From NCBI GenBank assembly GCA_029263415.1, contig JAJCXN010000036.1, positions 1 to 43,802 on the forward strand: 43,802 nt of DNA. Direction: 5' to 3'. Shown piece after piece: positions 2,112 to 43,802 of this stretch. Position numbers and translations under genes: made by a program. The DNA comes from Acidobacteriota bacterium. GTDB lineage: Bacteria; Acidobacteriota; Thermoanaerobaculia; Multivoradales; Multivoraceae. The notes below the pieces were generated by a model. It saw only the letters and a program-made list of their open reading frames with translations. It was not told the DNA's origin and searched no databases. Each line of letters opens with the position of its first letter. The first letter of the stretch is position 1.

Positions 2112-3266
2112 ATGGACTTTTCACTCTCCAAAGAACAACAGATGATCGTCGACTCGGTGGCGGGTTTCGTCAAGGACGAGGCCAACGTCGAGCGGTTTCG
2201 TGAGATGCGCGAGACTGAGCAGGGCTGGGATCCAAAGATCTGGGCCGAGATGGGCGAGTATGGGTGGCTTGGGATCGCTGCACCGGAAAGTGCTGGCGGC
2301 ATCGGTGGGTCGTTTGTCGACCTGGCTTTGATCCTTGAGCAGCTGGGACGCGGTCTTTCGCCTGAGCCAATCATCGCTTCGGTAGTGCTGGCTGGTGGCT
2401 TGCTTGAGCAGCTCGGCAGTGATGAGCAACAGCAAGAGCTGCTCGCACCGATGATCGAAGGCAAGACGTCGTATGCGTTTGCGCACACTGAGCGTCAGAG
2501 TCGCTACAACCCAACAGACGTGCTGTCCACAGCCACCAAGACCGAAGATGGCTATACCTTGTCTGGCGAGAAGACTTGGGTCCTCAACGGTCACGCTGCT
2601 GAGAAACTCGTGGTCTCCGCTCGCACTTCGGGCTCACAGCTCGACCGCGACGGCATTTCGGTGTTCATGGTCGACGCAAATGCCTCAGGTCTGAGCAGCA
2701 AGGTTGTGCGCGGCATGGACGGTCAACGCACCGCGTTTATCTCGCTCGACAACGTCACAGTGCCTGCTACCGCGCTGATTGGCGAAGAAGGTGGCGCTGC
2801 GGGTGCCATCGAGTGGGTTCTTGACCGCGCGGCTGCAGCCGCTTGCGCCGAAGCTCAGGGTTGCCTCCAGCAGATGTTTGAACTCACCGTCTCCTACCTC
2901 AAGGAGCGAGAACAGTTCGGCTCCAAGATCGGATCCTTCCAAGCGCTTCAACATCGAGCAGCGGACATGTTCGCCGAAACCGAACTGTGTAAAAGCGCGA
3001 TGATCCTCGCGGCCATTCGCGCTGATGAGACCGATGCCGACACCCGCGCAGCCGACATCTCGGCGGCCAAGGCGCAGCTCGGCACTGGTGGTTGGTTCGT
3101 CGATGAGAATGCGATCCAGCTGCACGGCGGCATTGGCATCACCGACGAGCACGACATCGGCCTCTTCTTCAAGCGGGTGCGGGTCCTGCAAGGACTGTTC
3201 GGCGACGCCGACTATCACGTCGATCGTTTCCAAGGTCTCGAGGGCTTCGACCAGGCGCGCGGCTAG
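2112..3266 (+). CDS. acyl-CoA dehydrogenase (PimD-like small subunit)
   Basis: A 384-residue ACAD-family protein. The start (MDFSLSKEQQMI) is typical of the second member of paired ACAD genes. The middle-domain S-E-x-x-A-G-S-D signature of the upstream paralogue has decayed to R-Y-N-P-T-D-V, so FAD/substrate contacts at this strand probably differ. The C-terminal domain keeps the Q-L-H-G-G-I-G segment near residue 338 and a following R-V block. It is separated from the first ACAD by about 350 bases of repeats, so it may have its own promoter. The likely role is a partner in an alpha2beta2 dehydrogenase acting on an unusual acyl-CoA; a stand-alone dehydrogenase remains possible. The ribosome-binding site is weak. 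Confidence 0.9.
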   Translation: MDFSLSKEQQMIVDSVAGFVKDEANVERFREMRETEQGWDPKIWAEMGEYGWLGIAAPESAGGIGGSFVDLALILEQLGRGLSPEPIIASVVLAGGLLEQLGSDEQQQELLAPMIEGKTSYAFAHTERQSRYNPTDVLSTATKTEDGYTLSGEKTWVLNGHAAEKLVVSARTSGSQLDRDGISVFMVDANASGLSSKVVRGMDGQRTAFISLDNVTVPATALIGEEGGAAGAIEWVLDRAAAAACAEAQGCLQQMFELTVSYLKEREQFGSKIGSFQALQHRAADMFAETELCKSAMILAAIRADETDADTRAADISAAKAQLGTGGWFVDENAIQLHGGIGITDEHDIGLFFKRVRVLQGLFGDADYHVDRFQGLEGFDQARG

Positions 3267-3420
3267 CGCTCGATTCTTCAGTAGCTCTCGCGATAGGTCC
3301 AGATAGGGGACATGCGACGGGCCGGGAATACCAACAGGGGGTCCGCGCTGTTTGCATCTATGAAAGAGCAGGCGGCTGCTCACCGCTGATTTCAACTCCC
3401 GAAAGCCCGAGGCCAGATTG

Positions 3421-4551
3421 ATGAACCCCCACGCCCAAGTTTCCGGCGACCACGCCCGACGCCCGTTCCCCAGCTGCTGCATCCAGCTCGGCCTACTGAC
3501 ACTCTTAGCGACTCTGCTTGCGTCCCCCGGCATCAGTCAAACCGCGGTCACCGCGAATCGATCCTCGGATGTCTTGCAGCGGCCGGCACGGGCGGTAACG
3601 GCTCTGAGCACGGACAGCATTGTTGGCTCCACGCAGCGCCAGGAACTGGTCATGCAGTGGGATGGCACTGCCGAGGACTTCTACGCAGTCGTCGGAACCC
3701 TACCGGGCGAGGCAGCCGAGTTCATTCAGCTACTCACAATGCCAAGCGACAGCGGCACCATTAACACCGTAACGGCCTGCTTCGGGTTTGATGTGGCCGT
3801 CACCGACTTCACGTTCGAAGTGCTGGTCCTGCGCAATAGCGGCGGGCTCCCGACAACAGTCCTTGCAGACGAGCAGTTCGAGCTGCCCGGAGTCACCTCC
3901 CAGGACTTGTGCATTGCGGCCACTCTGGACCTTCCCGTCGCTCAACGACGGATCTTCGTCGGCGTTCGCTTTCCAGAGATTCCCGGTGCCACACAGGGCT
4001 CGGCAGGTGTCTTCTTAGGCGCGGACCAGAATGGTCCCTCCACCTCGCCGAGTTTTGCTCGGGTCCACCCAGACGATCCTTGGGAGACGATCCAAAGTTT
4101 CGGGTTCCCTGACTTCCGCAACCTAGCCATCGAACTTGAGTTCACAAGCGAGGGTGAGCCCCCGCCGCCGCCCCTCGAGACCTGCCCAGCAGTGGCCTGC
4201 ATCGAGGATGACGAGACCCTGTGTCTGCTCAACGACCGCTTCCAAGTCAAAGCAGATTTTCGTGACATCGCAGGCGCATCGGGGCCTGCCAAAGCCGGTG
4301 CCGAGATCACCCCAGACACTGGTTTCTTCCACTTCCCGGGCCAACCGAACAATGTCGAAGTGACGACCAAGCTGATCGACGCTTGCGGGCCATTCGACCG
4401 ACTGTGGTTCTTCGCTGCCGGGATGACCGACCAAGAATTCACCCTCAAGGTCTGTGACACAGAGACCGGTGCGCTACGCACCTACTTCGATCCACTTGAC
4501 AAGATATTCACGACGATCACTGACACCAGCGCCTTCGCCACCTGCCCATAG
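3421..4551 (+). CDS. secreted protein with conserved Cys-containing C-terminal domain
   Basis: About 376 residues. An N-terminal signal peptide (hydrophobic stretch LLTLLATLLAS, cleavage near ISQ-TA) sends it out of the cytoplasm. The middle part is beta-rich, with no family I recognise. After a proline-rich linker (EPPPPPLE) the last ~120 residues begin with two Cys-containing segments and end with D-T-S-A-F-A-T-C-P. From memory, this pattern (C-L-x-x-x-R-F ... TGFFHF ... NVEV ... K-x-x-D-x-C ... DTETGA ... TSAFATC) recurs at the C-termini of exported proteins of Acidobacteriota and relatives; its function is not known to me. A TTG directly before the ATG is an alternative start. No SD-like sequence was obvious. 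Confidence 0.75.
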   Translation: MNPHAQVSGDHARRPFPSCCIQLGLLTLLATLLASPGISQTAVTANRSSDVLQRPARAVTALSTDSIVGSTQRQELVMQWDGTAEDFYAVVGTLPGEAAEFIQLLTMPSDSGTINTVTACFGFDVAVTDFTFEVLVLRNSGGLPTTVLADEQFELPGVTSQDLCIAATLDLPVAQRRIFVGVRFPEIPGATQGSAGVFLGADQNGPSTSPSFARVHPDDPWETIQSFGFPDFRNLAIELEFTSEGEPPPPPLETCPAVACIEDDETLCLLNDRFQVKADFRDIAGASGPAKAGAEITPDTGFFHFPGQPNNVEVTTKLIDACGPFDRLWFFAAGMTDQEFTLKVCDTETGALRTYFDPLDKIFTTITDTSAFATCP

Positions 4552-4586
4552 GCCGGAGAGCCAAACTCAGCTAGTCGGCGACGGCC

Positions 4587-4642
4587 CAGCGCGATCAGCC
4601 CAGCGCGATCAGCTCGGTCCGATTAGCTCGGTCCGATTAGCT
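4587..4642. repeat. 14-bp tandem repeat, two variants
   Basis: Two units of CAGCGCGATCAGCC/T are followed by two identical units of CGGTCCGATTAGCT and a partial fifth. The 4552-4966 gap otherwise shows no gene. Confidence 0.85.
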
Positions 4643-4806
4643 CAATCCGGGCTACCTGGTCGAACCTTTTCTGCTTCCGCTCGACTTACCGGCCTCTTCA
4701 TTGAGGGCGAGGTCGCGGAACGGCTCAGGCCGACACACTCCACCGGGCGTGGCAACCAACCCGCAGGATCACGCTCTTGCTCGATCCCGCTTCCCGCTTC
4801 CCGCCA

Positions 4807-4842
4807 AGCGGCTGAGCGGCTAAGCGGCTGAGCGGCTGAGCG
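4807..4842. repeat. 8-bp tandem repeat AGCGGCTG
   Basis: Four units (AGCGGCTG, one with A as last base) plus a half unit. They are preceded at about 4785-4804 by repeats of TTCCCGC. Confidence 0.85.
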
Positions 4843-4966
4843 ACCCTGAGGACTCGCCACAATCTCACGGCGAGCATTCACGCTACAGCTTTGCCTCGCA
4901 CAGCACATAAGATTCGGGAAGCGGTACCGAGACCGCACCAACAATTCCAGAAGGAACACGACCCCA

Positions 4967-5482
4967 ATGCGCACACTCTCAGCCTTTGTCGTCCTCTTCA
5001 TTCTCGCTCTTGCAGGCAGTCCCGTCACAGCCCAAGCCGACATCCAAAGTGACCTCCAAGCGGACTTCCAAGCGCTCTCTCAGAAGTTTGTCTCGCTCGC
5101 CGAGGCCATTCCCGCTGACAAATACACGTGGCGTCCTGCCGAAGGTGTTCGCAGCGTCAGCGAGTCGCTGATGCACGTTGCAGGCGCCAACTACTTCTTC
5201 CCCACCGTTGTCGGCCAGGCGATGCCCGAGGGCATCGACCCGCGGGGCTTTGAGAAGGACTACACCACCCGCGAAGACGTGCTCAGAGTGTTCAAGGGCT
5301 CGCTCGAATCGATGGACAAGATGCTCGCTCTTGGCGATCTCCAAGCAGAGGTGACCGCATTCGGCCAGACCATGACCAAGGCCGGCTTCTTCCACACCGC
5401 CATCTCCCACAACCACGAACACTTAGGCCAAATGATCGCCTATGCGCGGTCGATCGGCGTGGTCCCGCCTTGGTCGCAATAG
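4967..5482 (+). CDS. exported DinB-superfamily protein
   Basis: A 171-residue four-helix DinB/YfiT-type protein with an N-terminal signal peptide (about residues 1-23, ending VTAQA), so it probably works in the periplasm. DinB proteins usually bind a divalent metal through three His. Here His70 (SLMH), His148 and His152 (S-H-N-H-E-H) are the likely set. Family members include thiol-dependent transferases, but most have unknown function. The ATG is preceded by AGAAGGA. The HAD hydrolase follows 16 bases later and may be co-transcribed. Confidence 0.85.
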   Translation: MRTLSAFVVLFILALAGSPVTAQADIQSDLQADFQALSQKFVSLAEAIPADKYTWRPAEGVRSVSESLMHVAGANYFFPTVVGQAMPEGIDPRGFEKDYTTREDVLRVFKGSLESMDKMLALGDLQAEVTAFGQTMTKAGFFHTAISHNHEHLGQMIAYARSIGVVPPWSQ

Positions 5483-5498
5483 CTAGAGCAAGTCAACA

Positions 5499-6110
5499 GT
5501 GAGCAAGACCGAAGCTTCAATCAGACACCTGGTCTTTGACCTAGGTGGTGTGCTGGTCGATTTCAGAGGCGTCGCATCGCTCGCCACGCGGCTCAGAATC
5601 GCCCCCGCGCTCATGGCAGAGCAATGGCTAAAGTCTGAGTCGGTCAGAGCCTACGAGCGCGGCGCAACCGACACCGAGACCTTCATTAACTCGGTCATCG
5701 CGGAGTTTGGCCAGGGCTTGACCGACCAAGAGCTCCGCGAGCAGATGCGCGGCTGGCTCCCGGGCCCGCTGCCAGGTGCGCTCGATCTCCTGCGCGATCT
5801 CGCAGCCGCAGGGATCTCACACTCTTGCTTGAGTAACACCAACACCTTCCACTGGCGCGAGATGCAATCGTGGCACCTCGATCGCACCTTCGCCCACAGC
5901 TTCCTCTCCCACGAGCTGCGCATGGTTAAGCCGGATCCCGAGATCTTCGAGCATGTCTCGCAAACTCTGGAACTCCCACCGAGCTCTATCGCCTTCTTCG
6001 ACGACCATCCCACCAACGTCGCAGCCGCTCGCGCGTTCGGCCTCACCGCAATCCAGACCACAAGCCCCCATGCCTGCCGCTCATGGCTTGGCGCCAACGC
6101 CCTTCTTTAG
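5499..6110 (+). CDS. HAD-superfamily phosphatase (YihX-like)
   Basis: A 203-residue haloacid-dehalogenase-fold hydrolase. Motif I is FDLGGVL with nucleophile Asp14, motif II is the S-N-T-N near residue 112, motif III is the Lys of V-K-P-D, and motif IV is the F-F-D-D-H pair. The small helical cap between motifs I and II fits the YihX/epoxide-hydrolase-N subgroup, whose E. coli member dephosphorylates glucose 1-phosphate. The natural substrate here is unknown. The start is GTG, 16 bases after the DinB gene. Confidence 0.88.
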   Translation: MSKTEASIRHLVFDLGGVLVDFRGVASLATRLRIAPALMAEQWLKSESVRAYERGATDTETFINSVIAEFGQGLTDQELREQMRGWLPGPLPGALDLLRDLAAAGISHSCLSNTNTFHWREMQSWHLDRTFAHSFLSHELRMVKPDPEIFEHVSQTLELPPSSIAFFDDHPTNVAAARAFGLTAIQTTSPHACRSWLGANALL

Positions 6111-35674: not shown

Positions 35675-36688
35675 TCACAGACGGTACACACGATTCGCTG
35701 TGCCCCAGAACATCGCATGCTGCTCCTCTTCCGAGTACCTAGCAGCGATCTTCTTGAGCCCGTTCCACAGCACGGGATACGAGAGCGACCAGCGGTCTAC
35801 CGGAAAGTTGCTCTCGAACATGCAGCGATTCGCACCAAAGCACTCGATGGTGTGATTGTAGTAGCGCGCCTGCGCCTCGACGAACTCCTCCGAGGTTGGC
35901 GGCGTAGCGCGTTGGTCCCAACCGAAACCGTTGTCAGGCATCGCTAGCCCACCTAGTTTTGCCACCACATTTGGGCACTCAGCGATCGCAGCGATGTCAG
36001 TTTGCCACTGAGCGTAGATCTCCTCGCGTTGCCCGGCGTACGGACCAACCCCGAGCGGGGTGCCGAAGTGATCCAGCACCATGGTCGTCTCGGGAACCGC
36101 AGCAGCAAGATCTCTAAAGCTAGAGTTCTGGTGGTGGTAGTGCCAGGTATCGTAGGTTAGTCCGCGTTCACCCAACCGCGCTACGCCACGACGGAACGCG
36201 TCATCGCCGTAGAGGCCTTCTGGGGCGCTTCCAGGAATCCTGAGCGCCTCAGGGTGAGGGTCGAGAGCACCTGCATGACGGATACCGCGGAATAGTCCTT
36301 GGCCTGCGGCTAAGTGCGCGTCCAGAACCTCATCGAGATCCGGGTGAGTCAAATCCGCTCGCGCCACGATTCCAGCCACCTCTGCCCCAGCGCCGTTCTC
36401 TGCATCACGAGAGGCCCTTGCGATCTCCTCCACGAACACCGACTCACCCACAGGCCGAAGATGTTTAGGACCGCTCCGGTGGTAGTACGCACCACACTCC
36501 ACAAACACCGTCTTTTGCACGTTGTGGCCGGAGCCCGTGTCAGCGCGTAACTGCTCGAGGAGATAGGTCGACGTGCTCCACTTCCAAAGATGATGGTGCG
36601 GGTCGATGATCTGCCTTGATGGATCGATAATCGGTTCTGTGACCTGATCCAGCCAGGCGTCGGTGCCTGGTACTAGCTCCTCTGTCAT
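35675..36688 (-). CDS. amidohydrolase-2 family hydrolase (PDC/fuconolactone lactonase-like)
   Basis: A 337-residue TIM-barrel metal-dependent hydrolase. The first metal-binding motif D-P-H-H-H-L-W is near residues 29-35. A barrel-end L-D-H-F-G and the family's F-E-S-N-F-P-V-D block follow, the latter with the conserved catalytic Asp. The nearest known activities are lactone-ring opening (2-pyrone-4,6-dicarboxylate lactonase, fuconolactonase). The true substrate is unknown. A GAAGGG site precedes the ATG. It lies 77 bases upstream of the NIPSNAP gene on the same strand; the two could form an operon in which both act on small cyclic compounds, though only one of them is exported. Confidence 0.88.
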   Translation of the reverse strand: MTEELVPGTDAWLDQVTEPIIDPSRQIIDPHHHLWKWSTSTYLLEQLRADTGSGHNVQKTVFVECGAYYHRSGPKHLRPVGESVFVEEIARASRDAENGAGAEVAGIVARADLTHPDLDEVLDAHLAAGQGLFRGIRHAGALDPHPEALRIPGSAPEGLYGDDAFRRGVARLGERGLTYDTWHYHHQNSSFRDLAAAVPETTMVLDHFGTPLGVGPYAGQREEIYAQWQTDIAAIAECPNVVAKLGGLAMPDNGFGWDQRATPPTSEEFVEAQARYYNHTIECFGANRCMFESNFPVDRWSLSYPVLWNGLKKIAARYSEEEQHAMFWGTANRVYRL

Positions 36689-36847
36689 TGTCTTTGCCCT
36701 TCTCGCGATAACCGTGTGGTGTTGGCCGTGATGGTCTGTTCGTGGAAGGGCGATGTTAGCGGCTCACGCCCTTTACCCAATCGCTCGGGTCCACGTCGCT
36801 CTGCTAGCGTTGGCCATCCCGCAAGAATTCAACTGGAAGCCAAAGTC

Positions 36848-38383
36848 ATGAAGAAGCGATTGTCTCCTGCCGCCCTCTGCGTTGTCCTGCTCGTCAGCCT
36901 CTCAACTTCGGTCCTCGCCCAACCTGAGGAGAAGAAGAAAGCGAAGCCGCAACGACCTGACCCGACAGCTTCGAACTGGACCACTAGCCACTCGATGAGC
37001 ATCGACGGGACCAAGGTCGAGTACGACGCGACCGTCGGCAGCATCATCCTGCGCGACACCGAAGAGAAGCCGAGCGCGGAGCTCTTCTACACCGGCTACT
37101 TCCGCACCAATGCCGATGACGCTGCACCTCGCCCACTGATTTTCAGCTTCAACGGTGGCCCCGGCTCAGCCAGCTTCTGGTTGCACATGGGAATCATGGG
37201 ACCCAAGCGTGTGGTCACTGAAGAGGTCGGGCCGCAGGCCGCACCACCCTACGAGATGGTCGACAACCAATACACCTTGCTCGACATCGCCGACATCATC
37301 ATGCTCGACCCGGTCGGCACCGGCTTGAGTCGCCCTGCTGGTGAAGCTGAGGGCAAAGATTTCTGGGGCATCGACGAAGACGCGGCCTCGTTGACTCAGT
37401 TCATCCGGCGCTTCTTGAGCCAATACAAGAGATGGAACTCACCGCGCTATCTGCTCGGTGAAAGTTACGGCACCACCCGCTCCGCGGTGCTCGCTACGCA
37501 TCTGCAACGCTCCAACATCGATCTCAACGGCATCGTCTTGGTGTCGTCCGTCCTCGACTTCGCGACTATCGGCTTTCCCGAAGGCTCGGTGGTGCCGTAT
37601 GTCACCAATGTGCCCTCCTATGCCGTCACCTCCGCATATCTCGACGCATTGCCCGGCGGCAAGCCAGCGGACCACGCTGCATTCATGAACGAGGTCGAGC
37701 AGTGGGCGATCACCGACTACGCAACAGCTCTGTTGGCCGGCAGCGCCGTCGACCCCGCTCACCGCGCCAAGGTGCTCAATGACATGCACCTCTACACCGG
37801 GTTGAGCAAGGAATACCTCGACAAGAGCAACCTCCGCGTCAGTGCTCCGGAGTACCAACAGGAACTCCTGCGCGACAAGGGCCTGCTCGTAGGTCGTCTC
37901 GACGCCCGCTTCACTGGTCCTAGCGGCGATGTGCTCAACACCCGCCCCTCACATGATCCACAATCCACGGCGATCAGCTCCGCTTACACGTCGATCTTCA
38001 ATACCTACCTCCGCGACCAACTCGGCTATGACGGCGATCGCGAGTACGTGCCCAGCGGCATGGCGCGGCCGTGGAACTGGGAGCGTCAAGGTGGAGCCCG
38101 TTCATTCTCACGCGGAGCAATCCCCAACGTTGCGCCAGATCTGGCACGGGCTCTCACCCGTAACCCGCGCCTCGAAGTGCTGTTGATTAACGGGATCTAC
38201 GACCTCGCCACGCCCTACTTCGCTGCAGTGTGGACCATGGACAGTCTGAATCTGCCGCCCGATCTGCGCGACAACATCGAACGCGCGGACTTCGCGGCCG
38301 GGCACATGATGTACGTTGAGGAATCACTTCTCGAACAGTGGCGCACCACGCTCGCGAGCTTTGTTGAACGCACATCGCACTGA
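36848..38383 (+). CDS. exported S10-family serine carboxypeptidase
   Basis: 511 residues from the ATG at 36848, which begins a typical signal peptide (M-K-K-R ... S-T-S-V-L-A-Q). The S10 core is clear: oxyanion segment F-N-G-G-P-G-S-A-S-F, nucleophile Ser206 in G-E-S-Y-G, catalytic Asp in G-I-Y-D-L-A-T-P, and His in A-G-H-M-M-Y near the C-terminus. A Lys-rich patch follows the signal peptide. Bacterial S10 enzymes remove C-terminal residues from peptides in the periplasm. Together with the M1 enzyme and the DUF885 lipoproteins this suggests a proteinaceous diet. It is divergent from the amidohydrolase gene. Confidence 0.93.
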   Translation: MKKRLSPAALCVVLLVSLSTSVLAQPEEKKKAKPQRPDPTASNWTTSHSMSIDGTKVEYDATVGSIILRDTEEKPSAELFYTGYFRTNADDAAPRPLIFSFNGGPGSASFWLHMGIMGPKRVVTEEVGPQAAPPYEMVDNQYTLLDIADIIMLDPVGTGLSRPAGEAEGKDFWGIDEDAASLTQFIRRFLSQYKRWNSPRYLLGESYGTTRSAVLATHLQRSNIDLNGIVLVSSVLDFATIGFPEGSVVPYVTNVPSYAVTSAYLDALPGGKPADHAAFMNEVEQWAITDYATALLAGSAVDPAHRAKVLNDMHLYTGLSKEYLDKSNLRVSAPEYQQELLRDKGLLVGRLDARFTGPSGDVLNTRPSHDPQSTAISSAYTSIFNTYLRDQLGYDGDREYVPSGMARPWNWERQGGARSFSRGAIPNVAPDLARALTRNPRLEVLLINGIYDLATPYFAAVWTMDSLNLPPDLRDNIERADFAAGHMMYVEESLLEQWRTTLASFVERTSH

Positions 38384-38410
38384 TCTCCGCCTCTAAAGCG
38401 GCCTGGTCCT

Positions 38411-38614
38411 GTGACAGCGGACGATTCTTGGCTCGAGATGCGCCAGCTCTTTGAGGAGTTGGTGGATCTTCCCGTGGCCGAACGAAGCCTCGCATTGAGC
38501 GATCTGCGGACGAAGAATCCTGGACCCGCGAGCCAGGTGCCGTCGTTGATCCTCTCTGAGAGTGAAGCCGTTCAGCGCTACCGAAGCCGCCGACCTTTCC
38601 GTAGCGACCGTTGA
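38411..38614 (+). pseudogene. possible remnant of a Ser/Thr kinase N-terminal leader
   Basis: A 67-residue ORF starting with GTG. Residues 7-35 (W-L-E-M-R-Q-L-F-E-E-L-V-D-L-P-V-A-E-R) resemble the conserved leader of Acidobacteriota kinases, which reads roughly W-x-x-x-x-x-L-F-x-x-A-L-x-L-P-x-x-E-R. The kinase domain that should follow is absent. It is a likely remnant of a deleted gene; a small independent protein is possible. Confidence 0.4.
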
Positions 38615-38702
38615 GCGTCGCTTGCGGTTTGCCAAAGCGTGGTTGCATCGCGAACTGAGCAGTTAGCCCGAGCCAGACTTGCCCGGGCTGCTTCCGACGG
38701 TC

Positions 38703-39116
38703 CTATCCGCGTTGCCCTGCGATCTCGACTGCGACCTCAAAGGCCACATGCCGATCCAACGTGTGCCAGACCGAGCAGTACTTCTCTTTCGAAAGAGCCA
38801 CGGCCCGCTCGACCTTCTCGCGCAGCCGATCACTCGGTTCTTTGGCCGTCACCTTGACCACCATGGTGTAGCCAATGAAGCAGCGTGGGGGATCCTCCGC
38901 CCGCTGCCCCTCCACCTCGACTTCGAGATCACTCAACTCAACTCGTCCCTTCTCAAGGATCATGGCGATATCGATCCCCATACAACCAGCCAAGGCACCG
39001 AGCACGACCTGCATCGGCCCCGCCTCAGTTGCTGACTCACCATCCAGCACAATCGGTGCGCCGTCGACCTCTCCCTCGAAACGCTGCCCACCGTGCCACC
39101 TGATCTTGGTCTTCAA
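38703..39116 (-). CDS. OsmC-family peroxiredoxin-like protein
   Basis: 137 residues from a TTG at 39116, selected because AAGGAG lies 6 bases upstream and the first strand (K-T-K-I-R-W-H-G-G) then starts normally. The two redox Cys of the OsmC/Ohr fold are Cys45 (A-G-C-M-G-I-D-I) and Cys114 (K-Y-C-S-V). OsmC proteins reduce organic hydroperoxides in the cytoplasm through these cysteines. The subgroup with G-C-M-G-I-D is closer to YhfA-type OsmC than to Ohr. It is divergent from the acyl-CoA synthetase gene, and the region between them carries short repeats. Confidence 0.92.
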   Translation of the reverse strand: MKTKIRWHGGQRFEGEVDGAPIVLDGESATEAGPMQVVLGALAGCMGIDIAMILEKGRVELSDLEVEVEGQRAEDPPRCFIGYTMVVKVTAKEPSDRLREKVERAVALSKEKYCSVWHTLDRHVAFEVAVEIAGQRG

Positions 39117-39122
39117 CTCGCT

Positions 39123-39128
39123 CTCCTT
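39123..39128 (-). promoter_or_regulatory. ribosome-binding site that fixes the OsmC TTG start
   Basis: AAGGAG on the coding strand is 6 bases before the TTG at 39116. The in-frame ORF continues upstream through the 20-bp direct repeat, which makes longer starts unlikely. Confidence 0.75.
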
Positions 39129-39191
39129 GTGGCGCGCGACTGGGCGCTCCACAGAAATCCGTGTGAGCGAAGTCTCGCACAGGCCACTACC

Positions 39192-39231
39192 TTCCCTGCC
39201 AAACTTCGAGCTTCCCTGCCAAACTTCGAGC
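39192..39231. repeat. perfect 20-bp direct repeat, two adjacent copies
   Basis: CTTCCCTGCCAAACTTCGAG occurs at 39192-39211 and again at 39212-39231. It lies in the OsmC/acyl-CoA synthetase divergent region and could arise from slippage or act as a tandem operator. Confidence 0.9.
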
Positions 39232-39290
39232 ACTCTCGCCCGAGGAGCTGCGAGCTGGTCGCACGTCGCGGCAGCAGCCGCAGGGCAGCT

Positions 39291-39328
39291 ACGGAAACGG
39301 CAACGGCAACGGCAACGGCAACGAGCAG
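39291..39328. repeat. hexamer microsatellite (ACGGCA)n
   Basis: About five to six units of ACGGCA (first one ACGGAA). It sits 120 bases upstream of the acyl-CoA synthetase start and could shift promoter spacing by slippage. Confidence 0.85.
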
Positions 39329-39450
39329 AACCTTCAGTCGATCGCCAGCCAGCAACGCTGTTATAACTCTGCCTCGGTTTCGCCTGTGGCCTTCCTCACC
39401 CCGTGCCAGAACTTCGAACCTCAGCTCCCCTCAGCAAAAGGAACCATGCG

Positions 39451-40998
39451 ATGCCCATGCAGCACTACGACTGGAGCCGCGCCCAAGCTCGTCGTCTCCC
39501 CAACAAGATCGCGATCATCGATCACGCAACCGGGCGGCAACTCTCCTACGCTGAACTCGACAAGCGCGCAAGTGCGCTCGCTGCAAGCTTGCAGAATGCC
39601 GGCATTCGCAAGTCAGACCGCGTCGCGCTCCTTGCTCTCAATGGGCCAGAACACTTCGAGCTTGAATTCGCGTGCGCCAAGATCGGCGCAATCTCAGTTC
39701 CCCTCAACTGGCGCCTGACCGAGAACGAGCTCACCTACATCGTCGGTGACTGTTCACCAAAGGTGCTGGTACACAGTGGCGAGTTCGCTGGGGTCGCAAC
39801 CGCGCTCCAGGGCAGGTGCGATATCCAACAGTTGTTCAAGATCGACCCGGCCAGCGCCACGACGACCTACGAAGCCGCGATCACCGAAGGCCTCGGTCTT
39901 ACTTATGAACCCGTGATTCAAACTCACGACGACGTGACCATGATCATGTACACATCTGGAACAACCGGCCACCCCAAGGGCGCGATGATCACCCACGGGA
40001 TGAACTTCATCAATTGCGTTAACACTGGCATCCCCGCGCGCATTACTCCGGATACCGTGCAACTCGTGGTGTTGCCGTTGTTTCACACGGGCGGGCTCAA
40101 CTGCTACGCCAATCCCGTGCTCCATGCCGGCGGTAAAGTTGTGATCTGTCGCGAGTTCGAACCGGGGCAGTCGCTCGACCTAATCAACGATCCCGCACTA
40201 GGTATCACTCACCTCTTCGCGGTGCCGGCGCCTTACCAGTTCATGATGAACCATCCGAAGTTCGCAGCAACCGACCTTAGCCGCATCGTCACCGCCGGAG
40301 TCGGTGGCGCACCCTGCGCCGAGATCATTCTCGAGACCTGGCAGGCCCGCGGAGTTCGCATGAGTCAAGGCTGGGGCATGACTGAGACCAGCCCTGGCGG
40401 CAGCGGTCTGGATCCAGACGATGCTGTTCGCAAACTCGGATCGTGCGGCAAAACAGTGCTTCACTCCGAGATCAAGATCGTCGACGACGAAGGAGAGGAA
40501 GTCCCAGCCGGCGTCGCCGGGGAACTCCTGATCAAGGGACCCAACGTCACCCCCGGCTACTGGAACAAACCGGAAGCCACCGCCTCGTCCTTCGTGGACG
40601 GCTGGCTGAAAACTGGAGACGCCGCGAAGTTCGACGACGAGGGTTTTTTGTACATCGTGGATCGGTGGAAGGACATGTACATCTCCGGCGGCGAGAACGT
40701 CTACCCGGCAGAGGTTGAAAACGTGATCTACCAGTTAGAAGCGGTCGCCGAGGCTGCCGTCATCGGCATTCCGCACGAGCGCTGGGGAGAGACCGGAAAA
40801 GCAGTGATTGTTGTCAAAGATGAGTACAAGCTCGACGAGCATCGGGTCATCGCTCACTGTCTCGAGAACCTCGCCAAGTTCAAGATCCCTGAGACCGTGG
40901 AATTCGTTGATGCCCTCCCCCGCAACGCCACCGGCAAGGTGCTCAAGCGCACTCTCCGGGAGCAGTTCCTCGGCAGCGACGCACCAGCGATCAGCTGA
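39451..40998 (+). CDS. acyl-CoA synthetase (AMP-forming, FadD-like)
   Basis: 515 residues from the ATG at 39451, seven bases after GGAA in AAAAGGAACC; in-frame codons upstream look non-coding. It activates a fatty or aromatic acid through acyl-AMP. The phosphate loop Y-T-S-G-T-T-G-H-P-K-G is present. So are G-M-T-E, the hinge region D-R-W-K-D-M-Y-I-S-G-G-E-N, and the catalytic Lys in N-A-T-G-K-V near the C-terminus. It is only distantly related to the synthetase at 6169-7752. The selenoprotein methyltransferase gene follows after 123 bases; whether they share a transcript is not clear. Confidence 0.93.
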   Translation: MPMQHYDWSRAQARRLPNKIAIIDHATGRQLSYAELDKRASALAASLQNAGIRKSDRVALLALNGPEHFELEFACAKIGAISVPLNWRLTENELTYIVGDCSPKVLVHSGEFAGVATALQGRCDIQQLFKIDPASATTTYEAAITEGLGLTYEPVIQTHDDVTMIMYTSGTTGHPKGAMITHGMNFINCVNTGIPARITPDTVQLVVLPLFHTGGLNCYANPVLHAGGKVVICREFEPGQSLDLINDPALGITHLFAVPAPYQFMMNHPKFAATDLSRIVTAGVGGAPCAEIILETWQARGVRMSQGWGMTETSPGGSGLDPDDAVRKLGSCGKTVLHSEIKIVDDEGEEVPAGVAGELLIKGPNVTPGYWNKPEATASSFVDGWLKTGDAAKFDDEGFLYIVDRWKDMYISGGENVYPAEVENVIYQLEAVAEAAVIGIPHERWGETGKAVIVVKDEYKLDEHRVIAHCLENLAKFKIPETVEFVDALPRNATGKVLKRTLREQFLGSDAPAIS

Positions 40999-41121
40999 AG
41001 GAACTTTCCTTCAAGAGACCTGTAACCTGCCCAGCAGATCTTCCTTAGCAAACAGGTGAAGGCCAGAAACCGCGCGATCGCGAGCCCGGGGCCTCTCACC
41101 AACGCTTGAAGGAACACATCC

Positions 41122-41907
41122 ATGGCTCTGCAATGTCCGATTGGTCTCGACGTCAACCAGCTCCGCCAGGAGATCAAAGATGTCTACTCGCAAGTCGCGG
41201 TCGCACCAAACGGCGACTTCCACTTTCATCGCGGCCCTGAATACGCCGCCTCCAAGCTCGGCTACGACGCCTCAGAACTCAACGAACTGCCCACCGCCGC
41301 CACCGCCTCGTTCGCTGGCGTAGCTAACCCACTCGCAATCGACGAGCTCGCGCCTGGCGAGACGATCGTTGACCTCGGCTGCGGCGCAGGCATGGACATC
41401 CTCCTCGCCAGCAAGCGTGTCGGCCCAGCGGGCCAAGCCATCGGTGTCGACATGACCGACGAGATGCTCGCCAGCACCACCAACTCCGCCGCCGAAATGG
41501 GCGCAATCAACGCGCAGGCTCGCAAGGGAGACCTCACCGCGCTCCCGATCGAAGACGGCACCGTCGATGTCGCTATCTCCAACGGTGTCTTGAACCTTGC
41601 CCCTGACAAGAACGCCGCCTTCTCCGAAATCAAACGCATCCTCAAACCCGGCGGCCGCCTTCTGCTCGGCGACATCATCATGAACCGCGAGCTCAGCGAA
41701 GACGCCAGAAACGACATCGACCTGTGGACCGGCTGAATCGCCGGCGCTCTGCAGTCTGCAGAGCTCGTTCAGCTGCTTGAAGGCCTAGGCTTCGTCGATG
41801 TCCGGGAAGTCCGTCGCTTCGACGCCTTTGCCGAAACCTCCAAAGAACACATTGCCCGCAAGTTCGGCGTCGAAGGAGCCAACTTCTTCGCGCGACGCCC
41901 GATCTAG
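41122..41907 (+). CDS. ArsM-like SAM-dependent methyltransferase selenoprotein (in-frame UGA = Sec205)
   Basis: Read conventionally the protein stops after 204 residues at the UGA 41734-41736. In the same frame it continues 56 codons to TAG at 41905, giving 261 residues. The SAM loop V-D-L-G-C-G-A-G-M-D is at 83-92. The UGA lies in D-L-W-T-G-U-I-A-G-A-L, which aligns with L-W-G-E-C-L-G-G-A-L of human AS3MT (Cys206). The following residues (E-L-V-Q-L-L-E-G-L-G-F ... A-N-F-F-A-R-R-P) are the normal end of the fold. The other As-binding Cys (S-N-C-V of AS3MT) is Gly155 here, so arsenite may not be the substrate. GAAGGA lies 9 bases before the ATG. A SECIS-like hairpin follows the UGA. Confidence 0.9.
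41746..41764 (+). promoter_or_regulatory. predicted bacterial SECIS hairpin of the ArsM-like selenoprotein
   Basis: GCTCTGCA-GTC-TGCAGAGC is a perfect 8-bp stem with a 3-base loop. The loop begins 17 bases after the UGA. The apex TGCA-GTC-TGCA is nearly that of E. coli fdhF (TGCA-GGTC-TGCA as I recall it), where the spacing is about 18 bases. It is therefore a very good candidate for SelB binding. Confidence 0.85.
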
Positions 41908-42009
41908 AAGCAACGCTTGTCCAACGAGACGCAAGCTTCGTGCCGAAGAACCTCTCGGTGAAGGCGTGAGTCCCCAACTCATACCTTCAACTCCACCCTT
42001 CACAACAGT

Positions 42010-42143
42010 GGGGCGAAACCCCCTTTACCCCATCAACATAGGGCCAACGCTGGCCAACGCCTAAAACTCGCCAGCCAAAGCGGGGTGATCGATCGCGCTG
42101 CTGGCGAGCGAGTGCGCCAGGCGGGAGTGTGAGGCCTCCCGCC
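42010..42143. terminator. two hairpins in the region between methyltransferase and enoyl-CoA hydratase genes
   Basis: GGGG-CGAAA-CCCC at 42010-42022 is followed by CTTTA. GGCGGGAG and CTCCCGCC at 42120-42143 form a perfect 8-bp stem. Both lie between two convergent genes and may end transcription. The 41908-42309 stretch has no supported gene. Confidence 0.45.
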
Positions 42144-42309
42144 GGGCTACACCTGTCCGTTCAACAGGCGGGTGAAGCCGGGGCGCATGAGACGAGTTTT
42201 CCTGCTGCCGAGGGTAGCAACAGGGCGTGCGGGAGCGCCGCGATCGCACTAGCCCTTGCACAAGACGACATCAGCTTTCTACGATTTCGACCTCCCGCTA
42301 CCGCCAACT

Positions 42310-43134
42310 TCACCGTCCCGCGAACACCGGCTCCTGCTTAGCCACAAACGCCTTTACCGCCCCCGCATGATCCTCGGTCTGCCCACAATGAATATGGTGC
42401 GTCGCCTCCATATCCAAGCACTCCGTCATCTCCCCACCCATCGCACGATTCAAGTTCTCCTTCATGTACCTATACGCAACTGCTGGCCCCTTGGCCAACC
42501 TCCCAGCGATCTCAGCCGTCTTTGCCTCCAACTCCTCCTGCTCGCATACCCAGTTGACTAGACCCAAGCTCAAAGCTTCCTGTGCCGACACCCGATCTGA
42601 CAAGAAGTAGAGTTCCCGCGCCTTGGCCGAACCGATCAACTGCGTCATGAAGTAGGTCCCACCGTAGTCGCCAGAAAAGCCCACCCGCGCGAACGCGGTG
42701 GTCATGATCGCCTTACTCGACATGACCCTGAGATCACACGCCAGCGCCAACGCCAACCCGGCTCCAGCCGCAGCGCCCGGCAATGCGGCGATTGTCGGCT
42801 TCGGCATCGAGAACAACTTGCCTGCCGTCTCTCGCTGGTTGATCCGTTGCTGATGAATCGCAGCATCGATGGTGGCGTCACCGACAGTGCCATCCCCTGC
42901 AGCGGCCATCCCCTTCACGTCGCCACCCGCGCAGAAACCGCGACCCGCACCGGTGAGCACCACGCAGCGAACCTCCGCATCCACTTCGACCAACGCGAGA
43001 GTGTCTTGCAATGCCGCGTTCATCTCACCGGACATGGCATTCAGTGCTTGTGGACGGTTCAGGGTCAGCGTGGCCACGCCATCGCTCTTGTGGGCCAACA
43101 GATGTTCGGTTCCGGTTTCAATTCGATCTGACAT
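42310..43134 (-). CDS. enoyl-CoA hydratase/isomerase family protein
   Basis: 274 residues from the ATG at 43134, which has AGGAG before it; the open frame extends 16 codons further. It is a crotonase-fold enzyme acting on acyl-CoA thioesters. Oxyanion-hole residues are visible in F-C-A-G-G-D-V-K-G-M and in P-G-A-A-A-G-A-G-L-A-L. The position of the second catalytic Glu reads G-D-Y-G, so it may be an isomerase or another crotonase rather than a strict hydratase. It fits the window's acyl-CoA metabolism but stands alone on this strand. An 8-bp repeat lies 61 bases upstream. Confidence 0.92.
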   Translation of the reverse strand: MSDRIETGTEHLLAHKSDGVATLTLNRPQALNAMSGEMNAALQDTLALVEVDAEVRCVVLTGAGRGFCAGGDVKGMAAAGDGTVGDATIDAAIHQQRINQRETAGKLFSMPKPTIAALPGAAAGAGLALALACDLRVMSSKAIMTTAFARVGFSGDYGGTYFMTQLIGSAKARELYFLSDRVSAQEALSLGLVNWVCEQEELEAKTAEIAGRLAKGPAVAYRYMKENLNRAMGGEMTECLDMEATHHIHCGQTEDHAGAVKAFVAKQEPVFAGR

Positions 43135-43194
43135 GGTTTCTCCTGGTTTGAGTTTGCAGCGGCCGATGCTAACCAATCCCATGCACTTGGAAAT

Positions 43195-43226
43195 CTCTAG
43201 GGCTCTAGGGCTCTAGGGCTCTAGGG
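43195..43226. repeat. 8-bp tandem repeat CTCTAGGG, four perfect units
   Basis: Four identical copies lie just upstream of the enoyl-CoA hydratase gene, between it and the transposase fragment. Copy number could vary by slippage. The rest of 43227-43478 shows no supported gene. Confidence 0.9.
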
Positions 43227-43466
43227 CAATAGCGACATCAATTGACCAGGATGTCGAGGTCCAGAAGATCCATCACTTCGATTGGCGCGTGCGAGTAGCG
43301 ACCAGGCCAAGCTGTGCACCGCCAAGGATAAGTACGAGTCCAAGACTCTGCAATCTCGTGGTCCTAGGCAATCTTTGAAGCTGGTGAACCCCTGGAAGAG
43401 GCGTCGGGCCAGTTTAAAGAGTCGTCACTTTGCGCGAGTCCATCGCCCCTCCGCGTCTATGTACGT

Positions 43467-43472
43467 GGAGGG
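43467..43472 (+). promoter_or_regulatory. ribosome-binding site of the Y1 transposase gene
   Basis: GGAGGG six bases before the ATG at 43479. It shows that the short fragment downstream is the true 5' end of a gene. Confidence 0.75.
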
Positions 43473-43478
43473 ATAATC

Positions 43479-43670
43479 ATGCACCCAGTTCGCTTCCTCA
43501 ACGGCGCGCAAGAGAACGGCAAGAGTACCGTCGAGATCACAGCGAAGACGCTTCAAGGTCGATTCCTGCTCAAGCCAGATACCCACGTCACCAGCATCAT
43601 CATCGGCGTCATCGCGCGTGCGAAGCAGCGCTTCGGCGTCGAAGTGCACGCACACGTCGCACTCAGGTAA
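43479..43670 (+). pseudogene. 5' fragment of a Y1 (IS200/REP-type) transposase, interrupted by a group II intron
   Basis: 62 native residues (T-L-Q-G-R-F-L-L-K-P-D ... I-I-I-G-V-I-A-R-A-K-Q-R-F-G-V-E-V-H-A-H-V-A-L) match the N-terminal half of the Y1_Tnp tyrosine-transposase family. The next residues should be S-N-H-x-H, the metal-binding motif. Instead, after GCACTCAG (Ala, Leu and the first two bases of Ser) the frame runs into GTAA and stops. The break coincides exactly with the predicted 3' end of an antisense group II intron at 43667. Relatives of this family mobilise REP-type palindromes, and such palindromes occur in this window. Confidence 0.75.
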
Positions 43671-43802
43671 GAGTGGGGACCCTGCCGCCTACCGGACTTT
43701 CATCCGACGGTTTGCAAGGCCCCCTCTTCCAAACCCGGCGTGCGACTTTCGTTCCGCACCGGGCTTTCCATCGATGTTTCCGCGTAGTTGGGAGAGCGAA
43801 GC
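43667..43802 (-). mobile_element. 3' end of a group II intron (domains V and VI), partial
   Basis: On the minus strand, 43766-43731 folds as domain V: an AGC triad paired with GTT including the G-U wobble, a lower helix CCCGG/CCGGG, a CG bulge, an upper helix TGCG/CGCA and a GAAA loop. After a 4-base linker, 43726-43671 folds as domain VI: arms of GAG-GGGG-G-CCTTGC and GCAGGG-T-CCCC-A-CTC leave a single bulged A at 43674. That A is the 8th base from the predicted intron end (AC at 43668-43667), as required for branching. The reverse transcriptase/maturase ORF, if present, would lie beyond the right edge. Confidence 0.72.

Follow-up and report, generated by a model that had tools for sequence, protein, structure and literature searches.

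The DNA analysed here, a stretch of 43,802 nucleotides that we call the window, holds a methyltransferase frame interrupted by a TGA codon, which raises the questions of how this codon is read and what the resulting enzyme would do. The frame spans 261 codons, made up of 204 residues, the TGA at position 205 and 56 further residues, all in one frame (Table 1). A preliminary description had held that the UGA splits one continuous methyltransferase fold and that the 56 downstream residues are its normal C-terminus. Both points were borne out by comparison with an orthologue from another family of the same order (locus L020), which aligns over the full length at 72% identity and has TGA at the identical codon. 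Between these two genes, the 55 codons compared after the TGA encode 78% identical residues (dN 0.18, dS 0.96) and the 204 codons before it 71% (dN 0.22, dS 1.38), while the other two frames after the TGA reach 44-47% identity. Judged by this substitution pattern, the DNA downstream of the TGA evolves as coding sequence. An order-level search of 72 genomes found a methyltransferase match at E 1e-40 in 26 of them, and at least six of the listed same-order matches, the window gene included, carry a single in-frame TGA at the identical codon.

Table 1. Features of the methyltransferase gene, in window coordinates.
Feature	Position	Strand	Basis and remarks
AAGGA, likely ribosome binding site	41109..41113	+	From the sequence; 8 nt upstream of ATG
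Sec-containing SAM-dependent methyltransferase gene	41122..41907	+	ATG at 41122, stop TAG at 41905-41907; 261 residues with Sec205
FHFH, residues 33-36	41218..41229	+	Alignment; common in the Gly155 branch, ArsM mostly having an N-terminal Cys pair in this region
Val67	41320..41322	+	Alignment; replaces CmArsM Cys72
Loop DLGCGAG, residues 84-90	41371..41391	+	Alignment; SAM-binding loop by its motif
Gly155	41584..41586	+	Alignment; replaces CmArsM Cys174 (AS3MT Cys156)
UGA codon for Sec205	41734..41736	+	Alignment; CmArsM Cys224 position, conserved in relatives
Bacterial SECIS hairpin GCUCUGCA-GUC-UGCAGAGC	41746..41764	+	Comparison and bSECIS criteria; within the coding sequence

The residue specified by the UGA falls on CmArsM Cys224, a number obtained by counting in the alignment, and on position 169 of the human AS3MT chain (8xt7), and Gly155 aligns with CmArsM Cys174 and AS3MT chain position 119. 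We take these AS3MT sites to be the ones named Cys206 and Cys156, respectively, and the 50-residue spacing fits these names. The UGA therefore lies, as had been proposed, at the counterpart of AS3MT Cys206. Relatives were collected from whole genomes and from genomes of named species (for the latter, the best 80 of 557), and represent the part of the family nearest the query. The 146 loci with a scored match gave 141 distinct proteins, window protein included; residue counts take one match per locus, with the tandem paralogues at L067, L070, L074 and L112 kept outside. When these homologues were aligned at position 205, a check that the preliminary description had suggested, Cys or Sec was found there.

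The state of position 205 follows that of position 155. Gly155 occurs in 46 of the 141 listed proteins, comprising 39 with Sec, six with Cys and one with a broken frame, and all 39 Sec forms found among the 141 have Gly155. The other 95 listed proteins have Cys155, and consist of 91 with Cys67 and Cys205, one with Tyr67 and Cys205, and three that are unreadable at 205 (L038, L060 and L039, where an apparent U is a masked run of N) and were kept in the count. Sec was found at 205 in none of the 92 readable Cys155 proteins, and Cys at 67 in none of the 46 Gly155 proteins, which have Val, Thr or Ile there and, in one case, a gap. At two loci, L066 and L083, the metagenome-assembled genome breaks the gene into two frames, and both loci carry the TGA motif; L066 was scored as unreadable and L083 as Sec with the gap at 67. 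Another alignment, of 61 proteins, has 46 Gly155 rows (not quite the same 46), of which 39 show His34 and 44 show Phe35. Most Cys155 proteins carry a Cys pair in the FHFH region. On a tree built without columns 155 and 205, the Gly155 and Cys155 groups part with one change, the branch itself having weak support (12), and the Sec/Cys state of the 61 proteins requires five changes. By its aligned residues, the branch is marked by Gly155, by Val, Thr or Ile at 67, usually by His34, and by Sec or Cys at 205. The glycine at the other arsenic-binding cysteine, already pointed out for the window protein, extends beyond it and goes with Sec throughout the 141 listed relatives.

According to the labels of the sequence records, the branch occurs in Acidobacteriota, Actinomycetota, Chloroflexota, Gemmatimonadota, Myxococcota, Planctomycetota and Pseudomonadota. 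Tandem Gly155 paralogues are found in Actinomycetota, both with Sec at L070:1362-3082 and both with Cys at L074:4080-5756 and at L112 (about 3250-5756). Further branch Sec proteins that lack FHFH lie at L067:6300-7082 and L134:4998-5729, and L067 has both types in tandem. At L182:4072-5580 (genome G282), a DUF2652 domain is encoded in the frame ahead of the TGA, on the N-terminal side of the methyltransferase, and may represent another fusion.

The genome from which the window derives (6.89 Mb, 99.2% complete) was searched for selA, selB, selC and selD, whose presence the preliminary description had wanted checked. All four were found, each above its cut-off: SelA at 375.6 bits, SelB at 329 bits (cut-off 242), a tRNA-Sec with anticodon UCA at 71.1 bits (cut-off 47) and SelD at 249 bits with its pieces summed (cut-off 125). 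The selD gene, at contig C23 163515-164576, sits within an open frame of 833 codons and is possibly fused to another domain. Among the 39 Sec-form genomes searched, SelB was matched in 36, SelA in 36 and at least one of the two in 38; three gave no SelB match, three no SelA match, and G454 (L069) neither, and the SelB match of G300 is below cut-off and contains TAA. Both proteins were matched in one of the six Cys-form genomes (G446, L075), and neither was matched in the other five. The choice between the Sec and Cys forms tracks the presence of the Sec machinery.

The hairpin that follows the UGA begins at the tenth nucleotide after it, and its apical loop at about 16-17 nt. With a predicted energy of -11.7 kcal/mol, an 8 bp stem, the loop GUC and a distance of 17 nt from the UGA, it lies within the published criteria for a bacterial SECIS (bSECIS), which are a loop of 3-9 nt with an early G, a stem of 4-16 bp, a distance of 16-37 nt from the UGA and an energy of -7.5 kcal/mol or lower (PMC13188914, in excerpt). 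Among the listed relatives, a hairpin of this kind was found in 40 of 41 Sec genes versus 1 of 99 Cys homologues, and in none of the eight Cys genes of the Gly155 branch, two of which are tandem paralogues; the sole miss among the 41 Sec genes is L082, whose hairpin falls outside the criteria. Across 35 main-group Sec genes, nucleotides 10-16 after the UGA pair with nucleotides 22-28 through interchangeable stems such as GCUCUGC/GCAGAGC, CUCUCC/GGAGAG, GCCUGC/GCAGGC and GCGCUGC/GCAGCGC. Of 245 stem cells 239 are paired, against an average of 212 over 2000 shuffles, none of which exceeded 221. This test serves as a guide only, since substitutions in the stem also track those in the protein and the sequences compared share ancestry. 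The test against the bSECIS criteria is more telling. The 50-nt fold starting at the UGA does not stand out in stability from its shuffles (z 0.15), so it is the comparison between genes, together with the published criteria, that carries the case for the SECIS.

Since the sel genes are present, the TGA is conserved in orthologues and the hairpin shows compensatory changes, the UGA is almost certainly decoded as Sec at position 205. A ribosome reaching the UGA would meet SelB with Sec-tRNA(UCA), held there by the hairpin, and Sec would become residue 205 of an ArsM-fold class I SAM methyltransferase. Together, the alignment to CmArsM Cys224, the sel genes and the conserved TGA support the preliminary claim of Sec at a conserved Cys position.

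The further impression that this type of protein looks little characterised was not supported as regards the kind being new, as Sec-containing 'arsenite methyltransferases' with a UxxG motif are already published (PMC2398784, PMC5029168 and PMC13188914, each in excerpt). Eight were reported in the GOS set (PMC2398784) and 41 selenoproteins in 39 organisms (PMC5029168), and a 2026 list includes a 'UxxG' family with WP_011987699.1 as representative and Fomenko 2007 as its given source; the excerpted text of that list describes the functions as largely uncharacterised and the metal binding as inferred from Cys homologues (PMC13188914). The window gene belongs to this already accepted prokaryotic selenoprotein family. 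In the literature searched, with the key source papers outside its scope, we found no statement of the rule of lost arsenic ligands or of a link to TusA and DsrE. Fused double-Sec forms are not new either, as they already have NCBIfam models. NF041537, NF041536 and NF047649 describe ArsM fused to AhpD, DUF2284 or UXPK-star, with two or three Sec; their N-terminal 220-230 residues match the window protein, whereas the latter stops after residue 261 with a single Sec and scores 190-212 bits against cut-offs of 460-575. Haft and Tolstoy 2025 is reportedly the cited source for these fused Sec families.

Pfam and NCBIfam searches identified the window protein as a SAM methyltransferase, with arsenite methyltransferase NF008823 as the best NCBIfam match (222.7 bits). 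The protein resembles NF008823/PRK11873 (UxxG) in its UIAG motif, its one Sec and its single methyltransferase domain, but remains below the family cut-off of 263. An AlphaFold2 model, computed with Cys in place of Sec from the alignment of 61 sequences, had a mean pLDDT of 95.8, and its best solved matches were ArsM structures: 6cx6 (Z 26.7, 2.3 A over 223 residues), 4fr0 (Z 26.6) and 5evj (Z 25.3). Other methyltransferases followed from Z 21.5 down, with human AS3MT and the rest of the ArsM entries interspersed among them at Z 20.9 to 20.1. The model thus predicts an ArsM fold of the class I SAM-methyltransferase type.

The 'ArsM-like' label of the preliminary description stands for fold and sequence, but a function in arsenite methylation is doubtful, as the Cys72 and Cys174 ligands are absent. 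Compared with ArsM and AS3MT (4fr0, 5evj, 8xt7), the protein is alike in fold, SAM site and Cys224 position, but it lacks Cys72, Cys174 and the N-terminal Cys pair and has Sec at 224; at CmArsM positions 72, 174 and 224 it reads Val, Gly and Sec. A survey that required at least three of four cysteines reports Cys72, Cys174 and Cys224 as conserved in the ArsM proteins retrieved (PMC5552862, in excerpt). Because Cys72 and Cys174 are absent from the branch, it falls outside the cysteine definition of ArsM. With these ligands gone, As(III) would not be held as in ArsM, and the window protein is therefore likely to be something other than an arsenite methyltransferase. We count as support for this non-arsenic reading the separate ArsM of the same genome (L193:1498-2679, contig C41), which has 393 residues and all four cysteines, in the motifs CCP, DYGCGDP, SNCVLNL and WSGCISG. 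Two-Cys ArsM proteins are described as retaining the 174/224 pair. Since ArsM proteins with only two conserved cysteines are reported, in excerpted literature, the branch may have a residual metalloid role.

Gene neighbourhoods point to sulfur as a candidate substrate. At 11 of the 46 branch loci, a sulfur-type partner (DsrE, TusA, rhodanese, cysteine desulfurase or MddA) is nearby or fused, and none was found at the other 35 in the flanks compared, many of which cover only 1.5 kb per side. In the nearest relative (L020/L178, 72%), a DsrE gene ends 54 nt upstream and an IscS/NifS-type cysteine desulfurase gene lies directly downstream, and at L065 (62%) DsrE is 10 nt upstream of the methyltransferase gene. 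TusA, DsrE and the methyltransferase stand in a row at L072, TusA is fused to the methyltransferase and followed by DsrE at L075, and TusA lies downstream in the same frame past the stop at L068. DsrE is downstream at L073 and, at a distance of 2.9 kb, at L069; a desulfurase is near the methyltransferase at L112; and the L071 gene is followed by genes for a rhodanese-MBL and an MFS protein, the former with relatives at L072 and L110. At L086:3195-4793, the Sec methyltransferase runs without a stop into MddA, the methanethiol S-methyltransferase (348.8 bits, cut-off 270), and the two may form a fusion protein. Elsewhere MddA was above cut-off in few cases, 3 of 46 genomes in all (9 if E 1e-20 is the limit), the window genome not among them, so it was dropped as a general partner and kept as this one in-frame case. 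A TusA match in L080 (E 0.0005) was discarded because its frame differs from that of the methyltransferase, and MBL proteins were left uncounted in L158/L191, where the rhodanese domain is missing, and in L080 and L112, where the matches are weak (E about 4e-6).

A search of window positions 36001-43802 for relatives of the branch DsrE, TusA, rhodanese-MBL, desulfurase and MFS proteins gave none; the neighbours there are an acyl-CoA ligase gene upstream and a crotonase-type gene downstream on the opposite strand. With branch-derived seeds, Cys155 loci gave no DsrE, TusA, rhodanese-MBL or desulfurase, in a comparison where the seeds favour the branch and flank lengths differ. Neighbours were also compared in 28 loci per group, taken in list order among those with usable flanks, by scanning 94 of 99 proteins for Gly155 (the five dropped being methyltransferase paralogues or pieces) and 97 of 97 for Cys155; the comparison covers the top 25 families out of 180 and 200, respectively, so that a family with one or two members may escape notice in either group. 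The commonest Pfam families beside Gly155 genes were MFS (4), alpha/beta hydrolase (4), DsrE (4), rhodanese (3) and LysR (3), such that alpha/beta hydrolases and LysR are as frequent there as DsrE and rhodanese. Beside Cys155 genes MarR and related winged-helix families came first (5), and ArsR (4) and SBF (2) were also present, all small numbers; ArsR and SBF are outside the 25 most frequent families of Gly155 neighbours, and each can account for at most 2 of those 94.

TusA, DsrE, rhodanese and IscS hand over sulfane sulfur. From the neighbourhoods, a role as sulfide or thiol S-methyltransferase is a candidate for the branch, and the best overall reading of the window protein, which we hold with about even confidence, is a genuine selenoenzyme that is probably a non-arsenic, selenolate-dependent methyltransferase of a chalcogen, probably sulfide or persulfide. 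As to mechanism, we suggest with some reserve that the Sec205 selenolate takes or holds a small chalcogen substrate beside the SAM methyl group, with sulfur delivered by a carrier. Sec205 would occupy the arsenic-ligand position of ArsM, and the loss of the other two thiolates would suit one small chalcogen atom. The substrate would probably be sulfide or else the terminal sulfur atom of a persulfide brought in by a TusA-, DsrE-, rhodanese- or cysteine desulfurase-type carrier. Sec could take the sulfur as a selenenylsulfide, or the selenolate could hold hydrosulfide; SAM would then methylate the sulfur, and the methylated thiol would depart to be methylated again or exported. More tentatively, the bacterial Sec 'arsenite methyltransferases' in general might form a separate non-arsenic family, with a Gly/Val/His site and one Sec, that methylates carrier-delivered sulfane sulfur or sulfide. 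If this is true, a selenium-dependent S-methyltransferase would link selenium supply to the formation of methanethiol and dimethyl sulfide.

The proposed chemistry would be shared with the S-methyltransferases MddA, MddH and MddM1/M2, and L086 is in frame with MddA, but MddA differs in structure, being an integral membrane protein (PMC12904073, in excerpt). MddM1 and MddM2 have 210 and 204 residues, and words that start with 'selen' are absent from the main text of that source. The tandem pairs at L070, L074 and L112 were considered as MddM1/MddM2 and rejected given these lengths.

Three rival explanations bear on these conclusions. A true stop at the TGA, reflecting a pseudogene, a sequencing error or a 204-residue enzyme, would accord with automatic gene calling, and a plain caller did return 204 aa, the truncation that the preliminary description had foreseen. 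The TGA, the hairpin and the coding constraint downstream are, however, conserved in independent genomes, and the identical TGA in those genomes argues against a base error, leaving this explanation extremely improbable. The protein could instead be an arsenite methyltransferase after all, if Sec, a stronger As ligand than Cys, together with glutathione or another thiol replaced the three-Cys site. We consider this unlikely: although ArsM and AS3MT are the best solved matches, NF008823 is the best NCBIfam match and a 2026 review attributes metal binding, including that of As, to Sec sites by inference from their Cys homologues (PMC13188914, in excerpt), the NF008823 score is below cut-off, all 46 listed Gly155 proteins, Sec and Cys members alike, lack Cys72 and Cys174, whereas the ArsM survey has 72, 174 and 224 conserved (PMC5552862, in excerpt), and ArsR and SBF appear among the listed neighbours of Cys155 genes rather than of Gly155 genes.

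The remaining rival retains the chalcogen chemistry and exchanges the atom, with selenide or methylselenol being methylated as a detoxification step in organisms that use selenium. Sec users handle selenide, and proteins of the DsrE/TusA type and desulfurases can carry selenium too, so that the same neighbours could serve this explanation. It is nonetheless doubtful in view of the five changes of Sec/Cys state on the tree and of the five of six Cys-form genomes that gave no SelA or SelB match, which indicate that the protein persists without Sec machinery. The sulfur reading remains the preferred one.

The truncation of the window protein at residue 204 by a standard caller, combined with an arsenite methyltransferase label, means that both its selenium and its probable role would be missed in surveys of arsenic methylation. 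The branch also offers natural Sec and Cys versions of one enzyme and a clear contrast of arsenic versus sulfur chemistry. An MFS transporter accompanies the branch at several loci: 56.6-57.9% identical to the L071 copy (L071:2933-4195), it recurs at L108:2900-4165, L112:859-2079, L187:6961-8190 and L191:3005-5626. Within the window, a match to group II intron RNA (RF00029, 46.4 bits) lies at 43667-43768 on the minus strand, near the contig end.
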